Assembly: GCA_903862425.1 (NCBI GenBank) | Contig: CAIOYC010000008.1 | Coordinates: 1 to 64,000, forward strand | Length of the DNA: 64,000 bases | Reading direction: 5' to 3' | Source: an uncultured Caulobacterales bacterium | GTDB taxonomy: Bacteria > Pseudomonadota > Alphaproteobacteria > Caulobacterales > Caulobacteraceae | In this document: positions 8,815 through 33,238 of the stretch, piece by piece | Position numbering within the stretch: position 1 is the first letter of the stretch | How the letters are laid out: each line of letters begins with the position of its first letter | Made by a program: the position numbers and the translations under genes | The notes under the pieces: generated by a model | The model's input: the letters and a program-made list of their open reading frames with translations, nothing else | Databases searched by the model: none | What the model was told of the DNA's origin: nothing

Positions 8815-8837
8815 AAAAAAGGCCCCCGAAGGAGCCT
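8815..8837 (-). terminator. Attenuator terminator in the ilvB leader
   Basis: On the minus strand a seven-base stem (AGGCTCC/GGGGCCT, one G-T wobble) closed by the stable TTCG tetraloop is followed directly by six T residues. It sits 46 bases before the ilvB start, inside the transcript and downstream of a leader ORF, so it is placed to stop transcription before the operon. Two alternative upstream hairpins share one arm: 8842-8850 can pair with 8881-8889, and 8840-8847 can pair with 8874-8881. Confidence 0.85.
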
Positions 8838-8989: not shown

Positions 8990-9024
8990 ACGAAAACGGC
9001 GCGGGAGCTTTCGCCCCCGCGCCG
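8990..9024 (-). terminator. Intrinsic terminator of the rpsF-rpsR-rplI operon
   Basis: GGCGCGGG at 8998-9005 pairs with CCCGCGCC at 9016-9023, and on the minus strand the stem is followed by GTTTTCGTTT. It lies 25 bases after the rplI stop, separating ribosomal transcription from the ilvB leader that begins just beyond. Confidence 0.75.
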
Positions 9025-9049
9025 CAATCTTCAACCCTGTCGCTGGGGA

Positions 9050-10681: not shown

Positions 10682-11959
10682 TCAGACGATCCTGACCAGC
10701 ACGATCTTCTTCTTACCGGCGGCGAGTTTGATCACCCCGCCTTCGCCGATGTCCTCGGCGGTGATCAGGCGGGTGGCGTCGGGCTCGGCCTTGTCGTTCA
10801 CACGCAGGCCTCCGCCCTGGGCCAGGCGGCGCGCTTCGGACTTGGAGGTGGCGAGACCGGCGTCGAGGGCCAGGGTGTCGAGGGGAATGCCCGGCGACAA
10901 GGCCGCAGCAGGCACGTCGATGCTCGGCAGGTCGGCGGAGACCCCGCCCTGAACGAAGGCGGCATGTGCGGCTTCCGCGGCCTTCTCCGCCTCGGCGCGG
11001 CCGTGCAGCAGGGCTGTGGCTTCGTTGGCCAGTACCTTCTTGGCATCGTTGATCTCCGCGCCCTGCAGGGCTTCCAGACGCGCGATCTCGTCCAGCGGCA
11101 GGTCAGTGAACAGCTTCAGGAAGCGGCCCACATCCGCGTCCTCGGTGTTGCGCCAGAACTGCCAGTAGTCGTAGGGCGATAGCCGGTCGGCGTTCAGCCA
11201 CACGGCGCCGGACGCGGTCTTGCCCATCTTGGCGCCCGAGGCGGTGGTGATCAGCGGGGTGGTGAGGGCGAACGCGGGCTTTTGATCCACCCGCCGGATC
11301 AGCTCGACCCCATTGAGGATGTTCCCCCACTGGTCCGACCCGCCCATCTGCAGGGTGCAACCGTAACGCCGCGACAGCTCGAGAAAATCCGTCGCCTGCA
11401 TCAGCATGTAGTTGAACTCGATGAAAGTCAGCGGCTGCTCACGCTCCAGGCGCAGCTTCACCGAGTCGAAGGTCAGCATCCGGTTGATGGTGAAGTGGAC
11501 GCCGTAGTCGCGCAGGAAGTCGATATAGCCGAGCTTGGACAGCCACTCGTCGTTGTCGACCATGATAGCGTCCGTGGGGCCGTCGCCGAAGGTGAGCAGC
11601 TTGGCGAAGGTCGTCTTCAGTGAGTCGATGTTGGACTGGATCTGCTCATGGGTGAGCAGCTGCCTCGTGGCGTCCTTGCCCGAGGGATCGCCCACCTTGG
11701 TGGTGCCCCCGCCCATGACGACGATGGGCTTGTGTCCGGCCTGCTGAAGGCGGCGGAGCAGCATGATGGAGACGAGGTTGCCCACATGGAACGAGGTGGC
11801 GGTGGCGTCGAAGCCGATATAGGCGGCGATGGGGGCGCCCCCCTCTGCGGTCTGGGCGGCGGCCACGTCCAGTTCGTCCGGGTGGCTGATCTGGTGCACA
11901 TAGCCCCGCGCCTGCAGGGTCTGCAGGAAGTCGGACTTGAAGTTGGCGGGGGTGCTCAT
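10682..11959 (-). CDS. tyrS: Tyrosyl-tRNA synthetase
   Basis: The enzyme charges tRNA-Tyr. The 425-residue product is a bacterial class Ic synthetase. The HIGH-equivalent FHVGNLVS lies near residue 56, the tRNA and substrate segment GGSDQWGN near 205, and the KMSKS-equivalent [12 protein letters not shown] near 247. An S4 RNA-binding domain forms the C-terminus ([19 protein letters not shown]). The start is the ATG at 11959, seven bases after AGGA. It has a 142-base leader with a candidate promoter, a tyrosine-rich leader ORF and a stem that can cover this ribosome site, so regulation by tyrosine charging is likely but unproven. Confidence 0.97.
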
Positions 11960-11965
11960 TGGAGG

Positions 11966-12028
11966 ATCCTGAAGGTTGGGCTTTGACGCTGCGGCCTTGG
12001 TCCAGGATGGAAGGGCCGCGGGGCGGCC
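11966..12028 (-). promoter_or_regulatory. Candidate regulatory hairpins in the tyrS leader
   Basis: Two structures can form between the leader ORF and tyrS. GGCCGC-CCC-GCGGCC (12014-12028) is a very stable hairpin but is followed by only CTTCC, so it would be a poor intrinsic terminator. ATCCTG (12003-12008) is complementary to CAGGAT (11966-11971), which contains the tyrS ribosome site. In addition, GAACGACG in the first codons of the leader ORF (12091-12098) is complementary to CGTCGTTC at 12033-12040. These are visible complementarities; which form in the cell is inference. Confidence 0.4.
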
Positions 12029-12049
12029 AGACGAACGACGTCGACCGCG

Positions 12050-12100
12050 CTAGGAATAGCGGCGGTAATAGCTCCGGCAGATGGGGCTCGCGTCGTTCAT
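12050..12100 (-). CDS. Putative tyrosine-rich leader peptide of tyrS
   Basis: A 16-codon ORF, ATG 12100 to TAG 12050, encodes MNDASPICRSYYRRYS. Three of six consecutive codons specify tyrosine (TAT TAC CGC CGC TAT), matching the amino acid handled by tyrS downstream. There is no ribosome site, but a -10 element at 12108-12113 would place the transcript start at or within a base or two of the ATG, so it could be translated as a leaderless mRNA, a common mode in Caulobacter. Chance is possible because the ORF is short; the codon content and promoter position are what argue for it. Confidence 0.55.
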   Translation of the reverse strand: MNDASPICRSYYRRYS

Positions 12101-12107
12101 GGCCGAT

Positions 12108-12136
12108 TAGCTACGGCCCAGCCGGACGAGCGTCAA
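12108..12136 (-). promoter_or_regulatory. Candidate promoter for the tyrS leader
   Basis: On the minus strand TTGACG (12136-12131) is followed by exactly 17 bases and TAGCTA (12113-12108), close to the housekeeping sigma consensus used in Caulobacterales. The -35 hexamer overlaps the stop codon of the upstream DUF4169 gene. The predicted start point coincides with the ATG of the leader ORF at 12100. Confidence 0.55.
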
Positions 12137-12330
12137 TCCTTCTTGGGCGTATCGCGGTCGAGGCGGCGCTGGTCGAGGGCGCGGCGCATCTTGGCCGCCA
12201 CGGTCTTGGCAAGGGTCTTTTCCGGCTTGCCGAGGCCGTACTTGGCGCGATTGGCCTTGGCCTTGGCGTCGGCCTCCGACCTGGCCCGGGCCTTGCGGGC
12301 CTTGTTGAGGTTGACGATCTCCCCGGTCAC
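12133..12330 (-). CDS. DUF4169 family protein (65 aa)
   Basis: The small basic protein begins MTGEIVNLNKARKARAR and continues with an alanine/lysine/arginine-rich helix and TLAKTVAAKMRRALDQRRLD, which matches the DUF4169 pattern found in alphaproteobacteria; its function is unknown. The ATG overlaps the stop of the preceding small gene by four bases (ATGA), showing a two-gene operon. The region carrying its stop codon also supplies the -35 element of the tyrS promoter. Confidence 0.75.
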   Translation of the reverse strand: MTGEIVNLNKARKARARSEADAKAKANRAKYGLGKPEKTLAKTVAAKMRRALDQRRLDRDTPKKD

Positions 12331-31683: not shown

Positions 31684-32790
31684 ATGCTCCGTCCCATCCC
31701 GCTCGCCTGCCTCGTCGTCCTTACCGGTTGCGGCCCTGCCGACCCGCCGCCCAAGCCAACGGTAGCGGTGGCCCCAGCACCAGCGCTGGCCGCTCCCAAG
31801 CCGGCTTTGCCGTCCGCCCGGGCCGCCGACCTCGATAAGGTCAACAACGCCGCGTTCGACCCCAACGCCCCACCGTCGGCGGCCAGCTCGCCCACCGCGC
31901 CGAAGGAGACGCCGGCCGATCCTATGCTGATCAAGGCCGAGGTGCTGCTCACCCGCGCGCGCTTCTCGCCCGGCGCCATCGACGGCAAGGCGGGGACCAA
32001 CCTCAAGCATGCGATCGCCGCCTTCCAGACCTCGAAGAACCTTTCGGACTCTGGGGCCTTGGACGCCGATACATGGAAAGCGCTCACCGCCGTCGGCGGC
32101 GCCCCGGCGGTAAAGACCTACATTATCACAGACGCCGATATCGCTGGCCCCTTCGCCCCGGATGTGGGCGAGGATTTCGTCAAGCTGGCGGCGCAGGAAG
32201 CCGGACCGCAATTCGCCACGCCGCTCGAGGCCCTGGCCGAGCGCTTTCACATGAGCCAGGCGCTGTTGCAGGAATTGAACCCCGGCGCGGACTTCGCCAA
32301 GGCCGGCCAGGTGCTGGTGGTGACGGACGCGGAGGCGCCGGCCTTCGCCAAGGGCGATGTGAAGTCTATCACCGTGTCCAAGGCCGACGCCCTGGTCACC
32401 GCCTACGGCGTGGACGACAAAGTGATCGCCACCTATCCCGCCACGGTTGGCTCTACAGAACGGCCCTCGCCCTCGGGCGTGCACAAGGTCAACGGTGTGG
32501 CCAACAATCCGGACTACGTCTACGACCCGAAGAAGCTGCACTGGGGTCCGCGCAGCCACGGGAAGCTCGTGGTCAAACCTGGGCCAAACAACCCGGTCGG
32601 CGTGGTGTGGATCGACCTCAACGCCCCGAGCTACGGCATCCACGGCTCGCCCGACCCGGAGAAGATCGGCAAGACCGCCAGCCACGGTTGCGTCCGCCTG
32701 ACCAACTGGGATGCGAAAGCGCTGGCGGCAGGCGTGAAGCCTGGCGTGGTCGTGACCTTCGAAGGCGATCGCGCCAGAAAGAAGAGCTAG
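31684..32790 (+). CDS. L,D-transpeptidase lipoprotein with peptidoglycan-binding domain
   Basis: A lipobox LTGC at residues 13-16 marks a lipoprotein; a proline/alanine-rich linker follows. A peptidoglycan-binding domain (LLTRARFSPGAIDGKAG, residues about 80-125) is followed by the YkuD catalytic domain, with histidine and cysteine in IHGSPDPEKIG and ASHGCVRLTNWD (about 340). It would form 3-3 cross-links or attach proteins to the cell wall. A DUF with VGEDFVKLAAQ and a LysM-like segment (FHMSQALLQELNPGAD) lies between the domains. The reading frame is open further upstream, but the lipobox supports this start. Confidence 0.93.
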   Translation: MLRPIPLACLVVLTGCGPADPPPKPTVAVAPAPALAAPKPALPSARAADLDKVNNAAFDPNAPPSAASSPTAPKETPADPMLIKAEVLLTRARFSPGAIDGKAGTNLKHAIAAFQTSKNLSDSGALDADTWKALTAVGGAPAVKTYIITDADIAGPFAPDVGEDFVKLAAQEAGPQFATPLEALAERFHMSQALLQELNPGADFAKAGQVLVVTDAEAPAFAKGDVKSITVSKADALVTAYGVDDKVIATYPATVGSTERPSPSGVHKVNGVANNPDYVYDPKKLHWGPRSHGKLVVKPGPNNPVGVVWIDLNAPSYGIHGSPDPEKIGKTASHGCVRLTNWDAKALAAGVKPGVVVTFEGDRARKKS

Positions 32791-32800
32791 GCGTTCCCGC

Positions 32801-33238
32801 CTAGGTTATCTGTGCCGCGATCTGTTCGGCCAGCACCTTGAGTTCGTCCAAGTCAGCCATCTTGCCGTGGCTGTGCCCTTTCATCGGCTGATCGGCCCAG
32901 CGCGGGATGATGTGGACGTGCAGATGAAACACGGTCTGGCCCGCTGCCGAGCCGTTGAACTGGGTGATGATCACGCCGTCGGGGTTCAGCGCCGCCACCA
33001 CGGCCCGCGCCACCCGCTGGACGTCGGCCATAACCGTGCAGAGAACGTCGGGTTCGACCTCCAGAAGGTTGCGCGCCTTGGACGTTTTGGACACCACGAG
33101 GCAATGGCCGCGCGCTTGGGGAAAAACGTCCATGAAGGCCAGCACGTCTCGGTCCTCATAGAGCTTCACCGCCGGCATCTCGCCGCGCACGATCTTGGCG
33201 AAGATGTTCTGATCGTTGTAGGGGCCGTCGAGGCTCAT
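32801..33238 (-). CDS. HIT family nucleotide hydrolase
   Basis: A 145-residue histidine-triad protein with the motif HLHVHIIPR (about residues 105-113), and the earlier IVRGEMPAVKLYEDRDVLAFMDVFPQA region typical of the HINT branch. HINT enzymes hydrolyse AMP-amino or adenosine 5'-phosphoramidate substrates. It ends ten bases from the opposing L,D-transpeptidase gene. There is no sign of a fused domain. Confidence 0.94.
   Translation of the reverse strand: MSLDGPYNDQNIFAKIVRGEMPAVKLYEDRDVLAFMDVFPQARGHCLVVSKTSKARNLLEVEPDVLCTVMADVQRVARAVVAALNPDGVIITQFNGSAAGQTVFHLHVHIIPRWADQPMKGHSHGKMADLDELKVLAEQIAAQIT

Follow-up and report, generated by a model that had tools for sequence, protein, structure and literature searches.

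The leader peptide genes trpL and pheM of E. coli, the latter preceding a synthetase operon (pheST), have ribosome-binding sites and intrinsic terminators. In erm-type translational attenuators, a stall on the leader ORF frees a sequestered Shine-Dalgarno (SD) sequence via alternating helices. The tyrS gene of Firmicutes is adjusted to tRNA-Tyr charging by a T-box riboswitch, which binds the tRNA directly and involves no leader peptide.

For the alphaproteobacterium S. meliloti, excerpts of two reports (PMC7298713, PMC10117765) describe trpL, a 14-codon leader of trpE(G) whose attenuator RNA begins at the leader ATG and can act leaderless. The part of Schrader 2014 (PMC4117421) considered here lists a putative translated small leader CDS for trpS of C. 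crescentus, an organism in which it describes leaderless mRNAs as common (375). In the excerpted literature, we recognised no description of a tyrS leader peptide for these bacteria, and the survey of proteobacterial attenuators in Vitreschak 2004 might mention one.

The window analyzed here is a 64,000-nucleotide stretch of contig DNA from an uncultured Caulobacterales bacterium. Judged from its sequence, its tyrS gene is preceded by a conserved and probably leaderless Tyr-codon leader, the step under control being less sure. Rfam gave no match in the window at the gathering thresholds, nor any up to an E-value of 5 within positions 11900-12200, the T-box models included. The features of the leader ORF, its promoter, and the downstream gene are as follows.

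12131-12136, minus strand: -35 hexamer TTGACG of the leader promoter; TTGAC is followed 35-38 nt later by an ORF start in 88 of 110 family regions.
12108-12113, minus strand: -10 hexamer TAGCTA, with transcription predicted to start at the ATG (12100) or no more than about 1-2 nt from it.
12050-12100, minus strand: leader peptide ORF MNDASPICRSYYRRYS, probably leaderless, with like ORFs in named relatives and in 5 of 40 sister-family genomes.
12065-12070, minus strand: codons 11 and 12 (TATTAC), the Tyr-Tyr pair proposed to act as sensor.
12056-12058, minus strand: third Tyr codon (TAT) of the leader ORF.
10682-11959, minus strand: tyrS, tyrosyl-tRNA synthetase (425 aa), the putative regulated gene, with a TyrS match in 213 of the 219 Caulobacteraceae genomes searched.

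The leader ORF spans 16 codons, from its ATG (12100-12098) to a TAG stop (12052-12050), and its Tyr codons are TAT (12070-12068), TAC (12067-12065), and TAT (12058-12056); it is a short upstream ORF rich in codons for the amino acid of the downstream gene. On the minus strand, TTGACG (12136-12131) is followed by 17 nt, TAGCTA (12113-12108), a further 7 nt, and the ATG. A 65-aa ORF lies upstream (12133-12330), and its stop overlaps the leader -35. From the end of the leader ORF, 90 nt lead to the tyrS ATG at 11959, and an AGGA sits 7 nt upstream of that ATG. The name tyrS comes from an earlier reading of the sequence, which it fits. The initial annotation had given coordinates for the ORF, the promoter pair, and two hairpin pairings, all of which are correct on the minus strand.

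Conservation was assessed in 110 tyrS upstream regions from 17 genera (30 loci and 80 further stretches). Named relatives include Caulobacter, Phenylobacterium, Brevundimonas, and Asticcacaulis; the genus of the window, g1, has three sampled members, and the genera absent from the sample include g4, g14, g16, g18, and g20. Our results show that a Tyr-Tyr ORF upstream of tyrS exceeds chance. An ATG ORF of 9-22 codons with Tyr-Tyr at most 7 codons from its stop was present in 80 of the 110 Caulobacteraceae regions, compared with 16 for the next homodipeptide in an equal search (Arg; then Pro 8, Ala 6, Leu 6, and 0-5 for the rest) and none on the reverse strand of the same 110 regions. By genus, it was found in 3/3 regions of g1, 29/31 of g22, 32/35 of g7, 7/19 of g3, 3/3 of g15, 1/3 of g19, 1/2 each of g5 and g21, and the single region of each of g8, g9, and g10. 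No Tyr-Tyr ORF was seen in the sampled regions of g2 (2), g6 (1), g11 (2), g12 (1), g13 (1), and g17 (2), and three Asticcacaulis loci (L030, L032, and L053) had no such leader ORF.

A second search, blind to tyrosine, looked for TTGAC and a 12-22-codon ORF starting 31-45 nt later. Such a promoter-anchored ORF was present in 88 of the 110 family regions and absent in 22. Eighty of the 88 encode Tyr-Tyr, six a single Tyr, and two no Tyr; their length is 16 codons in 58 and 15 codons in 28, and all start with ATG except one GTG (G094). Of the 80 ORFs that hold Tyr-Tyr, 75 have the first of the two at codon 11. The codon pair is TATTAC in 71, TATTAT in 6, TACTAC in 2, and TACTAT in 1, so that the Tyr codons have changed synonymously in 9 of the 80. 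Conservation among relatives, with synonymous or compensating changes, had been put forward in the initial annotation as a check on the leader, and it was borne out: most sampled relatives carry the ORF, 86 of the 88 anchored ORFs keep Tyr codons, these vary synonymously, and the hairpin arms co-vary across relatives, as described below.

In G117 (L107) and G094 (L126), the promoter and a short ORF are present and the Tyr codons are gone (MFGKTSPTGHDNDRA and VTMRAHLVRRDRRSL), making these two genomes natural mutants of the proposed sensing codons. Loci L043 and L051 carry a Tyr-Tyr leader ORF with a GTG start at the leaderless position (VFQTLAQTRSYYRRP).

We also considered 40 upstream regions from four other Caulobacterales families, 10 from each. 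Five of these have TTGAC 36-38 nt ahead of a short Tyr-holding ORF, four from one family (MSSTHASGARARSYRYRTS, MSRIQLPHLFYYPLS, MSRRPTLTPLYCRSQA, and MSTSAALVQNYYRPLN) and one from another (MSHRALAAVYFYSALK); the remaining 35 have no such element. An ORF with a TTG start at L239 lacked the promoter spacing and was left out of this count. Tyr-Tyr itself was not enriched among the 40 regions (2, compared with up to 12 for other homodipeptides), and the claim for the sister families therefore rests on promoter spacing and Tyr jointly. The order of Tyr is rearranged in these ORFs (SYRY, YFY, and YC). That the five keep Tyr codons while order and neighbors change points to the Tyr codons, not a DNA motif, as the target of selection.

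In the 88 anchored ORFs, TTGAC lies 36 nt from the start codon in 54, 35 nt in 16, 37 nt in 13, and 38 nt in 5; that is, every one fell within 35-38 nt although 31-45 nt had been allowed. This fixed spacing predicts a transcript start at the leader ATG, suggesting that the ORF is probably leaderless and lending support to the leaderless initiation proposed in the initial annotation. A strict pattern drawn from relatives, TTGACTGCCA-N11-16-TAGCTA-N4-8-ATG, had a single match in each of 29 genomes among 99 from the family, and its reversed control matched none of the 99. Twenty-two of the 29 matches, those with a tyrS place listed, are on the tyrS strand and no more than about 300 nt upstream of the gene. 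The strict pattern has no match in the window's own genome, where the -35 continues differently; a looser one gave two matches there, one being the tyrS leader and the other lying in AT-rich sequence of a different contig. A generic sigma-70 scan did not list the window leader promoter, the -10 of which, TAGCTA, is far from TATAAT.

Several further promoter-like sequences were noticed in these regions. In part of g3 and g22 (L175, L176, L179, L186, L104, L136, and L144), the -35 region is the palindrome TTGACGCCGGTCAA, or a near form of it, in place of TTGACTGCCA, and it may be a binding site that overlaps the promoter. GTGCTAGA or GTGCTACA, at most 65 nt from the innermost tyrS ATG, recurs upstream of the gene both with and without the leader (L146, L154, L167, L095, and others), possibly as a second, unregulated tyrS promoter. 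The looser form [GC][TC]GCTA precedes tyrS in 65 of 88 genomes with the leader element and 12 of 22 without it. Ten of the 22 element-free regions have GTGCTACACG about 39-47 nt ahead of an ATG without an SD, which looks like a plain promoter.

The leader RNA of the window contains the following arms.

12091-12098, minus strand: outer arm of segment 1, GAACGACG, which pairs with 12033-12040 and is part of 1:2 in the fold.
12057-12066, minus strand: inner arm of segment 1 (ACCGC 12062-12066 and GCTA 12057-12060), identified by the fold and covariation.
12033-12048, minus strand: segment 2, immediately past the stop codon, able to pair with either segment 1 or segment 3.
12023-12028, minus strand: segment 3, GGCCGC, which forms a hairpin with segment 4 or pairs alternatively with segment 2.
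12014-12019, minus strand: segment 4, GCGGCC, which pairs with segment 3 or, alternatively, segment 5.
12001-12008, minus strand: anti-SD arm, ATCCTGGA, which pairs with 11966-11973 in the fold.
11991-11996, minus strand: segment 5, GGCCGC, which complements segment 4.
11966-11973, minus strand: segment 6, TTCAGGAT, which holds the tyrS SD AGGA (11967-11970), as seen in the fold.

When free, the window leader folds into 1:2, 3:4, and a hairpin over the tyrS SD. In the outer part of 1:2, GAACGACG (12098-12091) is complementary to CGTCGTTC (12040-12033); in the inner part, ACCGC pairs with GCGGT (12044-12048) and GCTA with TAGC (12049-12052), across the stop codon. The alternative 2:3 pairing joins GCGGTC (12043-12048) to GGCCGC (12023-12028). 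The 3:4 hairpin occupies 12014-12028 with a CCC loop, and no U-tract follows it. A 4:5 helix would cross the anti-SD:SD helix, a local hairpin of -10.6 kcal/mol in which ATCCTG (12008-12003) complements CAGGAT (11971-11966) and covers the AGGA.

To compare the 1:2 helix across relatives, we computed interaction energies between each ORF and either its own post-stop stretch or one from another genome, using 63 representatives of 86 leaders thinned at 85% identity. Own pairing gave -11.4 kcal/mol vs -7.9 kcal/mol for swapped pairing (z -10.7, n = 63). The helix between the first ORF codons and 12033-12040 that the initial annotation had described is part of the window's fold. Only 23 of the 63 representatives had their own partner rank in the best tenth. 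Further thinning gave z -7.0 at 80% identity (n = 21), -4.0 at 75% (n = 9), and -4.0 at 70%, where 6 sequences are too few. An inner stem of at least five exact pairs was found in 81 of 86 leaders, compared with 51% of swapped combinations, and distinct arm types keep distinct partners: ORFs ending in CGCCTGC, CCGCTCG, CCGCGCC, or CCCGCT each meet their own complement after the stop. The outer arm has an exact 6-nt complement within post-stop nt 4-34 in 42 of 86 leaders vs 13.5% of swapped pairs. Exact partners are usual for the outer-arm types GTTCG (4/5), GACCG (4/4), GAACG (2/2), and GATCG (43/58) and mostly missing for GATCA (1/10) and GTCCG (0/2).

Because the register of the other helices shifts between genera, an alignment-based structure count was made for the inner 1:2 helix only. 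This alignment (A1) holds 52 of the 63 representatives; the 11 excluded include the single-Tyr and odd-length leaders, except L116. The inner helix has 36 cells with changes on both sides, compared with 16 in shuffles, and its share of paired cells (76.5%) and covariation score were reached by 0 of 500 shuffles. Two of the five measures, the pairs with a both-side change (4) and the further pair types (10), were not above shuffles.

Segments 2 to 6 could be cut in 47 of the 63 representatives, 15 others having no recognised tyrS start or SD and one no SD hairpin. In own vs swapped comparisons, the 47 leaders gave z -3.3 for 2:3, -12.7 for 3:4, -4.3 for 4:5, and -7.2 for 5:6; since arms 3, 4, 5, and 6 were picked by folding, the tests of 3:4 and 5:6 are partly circular, and those of 2:3 and 4:5 are not. 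The non-neighbor helices 2:4, 2:5, 3:5, and 3:6 were no better than swapped (z between -1.6 and +0.9). One helix outside the chain, 4:6, reached z -3.0 in the 47 leaders, -1.8 in 21, and -1.1 in 9. These tests handle shared ancestry by thinning only. With 21 diverged leaders, z was -2.1 for 2:3, -8.2 for 3:4, -3.2 for 4:5, and -4.8 for 5:6; with 9, the values were -0.7, -5.6, -2.6, and -2.6, and with the 4 left at 70% identity, 4:5 had z -1.8 and 2:3 z -0.1. Swapping within genera retained 3:4 (-7.9), 4:5 (-2.8), and 5:6 (-5.6) and lost the signal of 2:3 (-0.5). Mutually exclusive helices, one of them including leader codons, are thus found in these leaders, with 2:3 the weaker. As 2:3 is statistically the weakest, the link meant to transmit the stall is the least certain.

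The tyrS SD is sequestered in a leader hairpin, a feature for which the swap test of the SD arms is partly circular. Its unpaired probability was 0.17 vs 0.28 in shuffles for 48 leaders and 0.16 vs 0.27 for 75. Four of the 22 element-free regions had an accepted SD and start, and their SDs were also paired (0.14 vs 0.16 with the element, p 1.0). As only these four could be scored, we counted the co-occurrence of SD and element instead: of the 88 genomes with the element, 73 have an SD before the in-frame tyrS ATG, compared with 5 of the 22 element-free ones (Fisher p 1.7e-7, ignoring relatedness). The SD goes with the leader element, which links the element to SD-led translation. In g7 and g22 (e.g. 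L146 and L110), the apparent tyrS start is an SD-led ATG more than 20 codons earlier, and the resulting N-terminal extension of TyrS was not seen in g1 and g3 examples.

Folding with a ribosome placed at the Tyr codons was then compared with free folding. When the edge of the ribosome was set 12-18 nt beyond the first Tyr codon, only 5-6 of 48 leaders gained more than 0.2 in SD accessibility, and 0-1 showed a loss. The SD hairpin claimed in the initial annotation is present in the window; its opening on a stall did not appear there in equilibrium folding (0.30 free and 0.20-0.31 stalled). The mean probability of 3:4 dropped from 0.83 to 0.66-0.69 when the edge lay 12-18 nt beyond the first nucleotide of the first Tyr codon and was back at 0.87-0.88 with the edge at 24-30 nt. 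Among 63 leaders, it fell by more than 0.2 in 22-26 and rose in 7. In some leaders, the automated step selected 4:5 as 3:4; the window leader is one of these, and it showed no stall response.

A hairpin followed by at least 6 T in 8 nt was found in just 4 of 73 leaders (a count made with no shuffled control), and intrinsic U-tract terminators are therefore nearly absent; none was seen in the window leader. Elsewhere in the window, the same combination occurs at 8819-8837, 8995-9025, and 32786-32804, all on the minus strand. The strong hairpins and U-tracts at 8995-9025 and 8819-8837 are likely intrinsic terminators.

Together, these data make it highly probable that the leader is a ribosome-mediated Tyr-codon attenuator of tyrS. 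The ORF, its Tyr codons, and the covarying arms support the control of tyrS by stalling at Tyr codons that the initial annotation had proposed; the stalling itself and the direction of the tyrS response are what we infer. Transcription would start at the ATG of the 15-16-codon ORF, which would be translated without a ribosome-binding site. With charged tRNA-Tyr plentiful, the ribosome would pass the Tyr-Tyr codons and reach the stop, after which 1:2 would pair, 3:4 would form, and the anti-SD would hold the tyrS SD, keeping tyrS off. With charged tRNA-Tyr scarce, the ribosome would stall at the Tyr codons and cover the inner part of segment 1; 2:3 would then form, segment 4 would be free for 5, and the SD would be released, turning tyrS on. 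In such a relay each helix would exclude the next, the last one hiding the tyrS SD, and the number of alternating helices gives the right parity for induction by starvation. We consider it likely overall that the leader is a leaderless Tyr-codon attenuator in which helix alternation releases the tyrS SD. The most detailed version is tentative, with the balance slightly against it: a six-segment relay (1:2, 2:3, 3:4, 4:5, 5:6) of the leaderless Tyr-sensing ORF that controls tyrS translation, is shared across Caulobacterales families, and is often accompanied by a second, leader-free basal promoter.

Among the alternatives, classical transcription attenuation would have a like leader peptide and helices act through 3:4 as an intrinsic terminator, as in E. 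coli trpL. The order of elements (leader ORF, antiterminator-like 2:3, GC-rich 3:4) suits this mechanism, as does the fall in mean 3:4 probability on a stall at the Tyr codons, and the 10 nt past the chosen hairpin are T-richer than the whole post-ORF stretch (0.24 vs 0.16). However, the rarity of a hairpin with 6 of 8 T in the leaders, set beside three such places elsewhere in the window, makes it unlikely, and at 4 of 73 the U-tract terminator reading was largely rejected. The near absence of U-tract terminators, together with a tyrS SD that is mostly paired, favors translational control by alternating helices; the output is, by a modest preference, translational rather than transcriptional. 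Few intrinsic terminators would also be compatible with Rho-dependent attenuation, in which the untranslated C-rich leader after the stop would be open to Rho unless the stalled ribosome altered access. The stretch separating the ORF from tyrS appears C-rich on visual inspection, and an excerpt of one report (PMC1262725) offers a proposed precedent in mycobacterial cys operons, with leader peptides without terminators and possible Rho sites. Rho alone would leave the helix chain down to the SD unexplained, and we regard this mechanism as rather improbable.

Two further readings concern the ORF itself. A ligand, free tyrosine for instance, could cause the peptide to arrest its own ribosome, e.g. 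at a Pro preceding the stop codon, and g7 peptides do often end in RLP or RAP, and some g22 peptides in RPLP, just before the stop. Yet the C-terminal residues vary (RLP, RPLP, RPLS, RSLS, RAP, RSY, and RRYS) and track base pairing to the sequence beyond the stop, not a peptide motif; because they follow RNA pairing, this reading was rejected as very improbable. The ORF could also be an untranslated by-product of a conserved promoter and an RNA or DNA motif, given that the promoter letters are strongly conserved as well and that TATTAC is by far the commonest form of the Tyr codons (71/80). Conservation of start codon, frame, and a length of 15-16 codons (86/88), along with Tyr codons that change synonymously or shift within the frame, leaves this explanation scarcely credible.

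Caulobacterales are a model group for the bacterial cell cycle and have many leaderless mRNAs. The tyrS leader equips a housekeeping gene of this group with a candidate tRNA-Tyr charging sensor. Should the relay hold, it would join the logic of attenuation to translation initiation without terminators and provide a natural test case for the timing of leaderless ORFs against transcription.

Compared with described systems, the tyrS leader would share its response to charging with the tyrS T-box, which differs in having no leader peptide. The stall of the erm attenuators depends on a drug and the nascent peptide, whereas that proposed for tyrS would depend on a lack of charged tRNA. With E. coli trpL and pheM, the leader has in common a short ORF with at least two regulatory codons near the stop; unlike the tyrS leader, those have ribosome-binding sites and intrinsic terminators. 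The small leader CDS of C. crescentus, as it appears in the excerpt, belongs to the same family and also lies on a synthetase mRNA, that of trpS rather than tyrS; the genome of the window has no ORF of 7-35 codons with two Trp in the 420 nt upstream of its trpS. S. meliloti trpL, so far as the excerpted reports describe it, is likewise an alphaproteobacterial leader peptide with codons for the relevant amino acid and an RNA that starts at the ATG, a start that is predicted for tyrS. It differs in sensing Trp ahead of a biosynthetic gene, where the tyrS leader holds Tyr codons ahead of a synthetase gene, and in a terminator that yields an attenuated sRNA, where the tyrS leaders rarely carry a U-tract.
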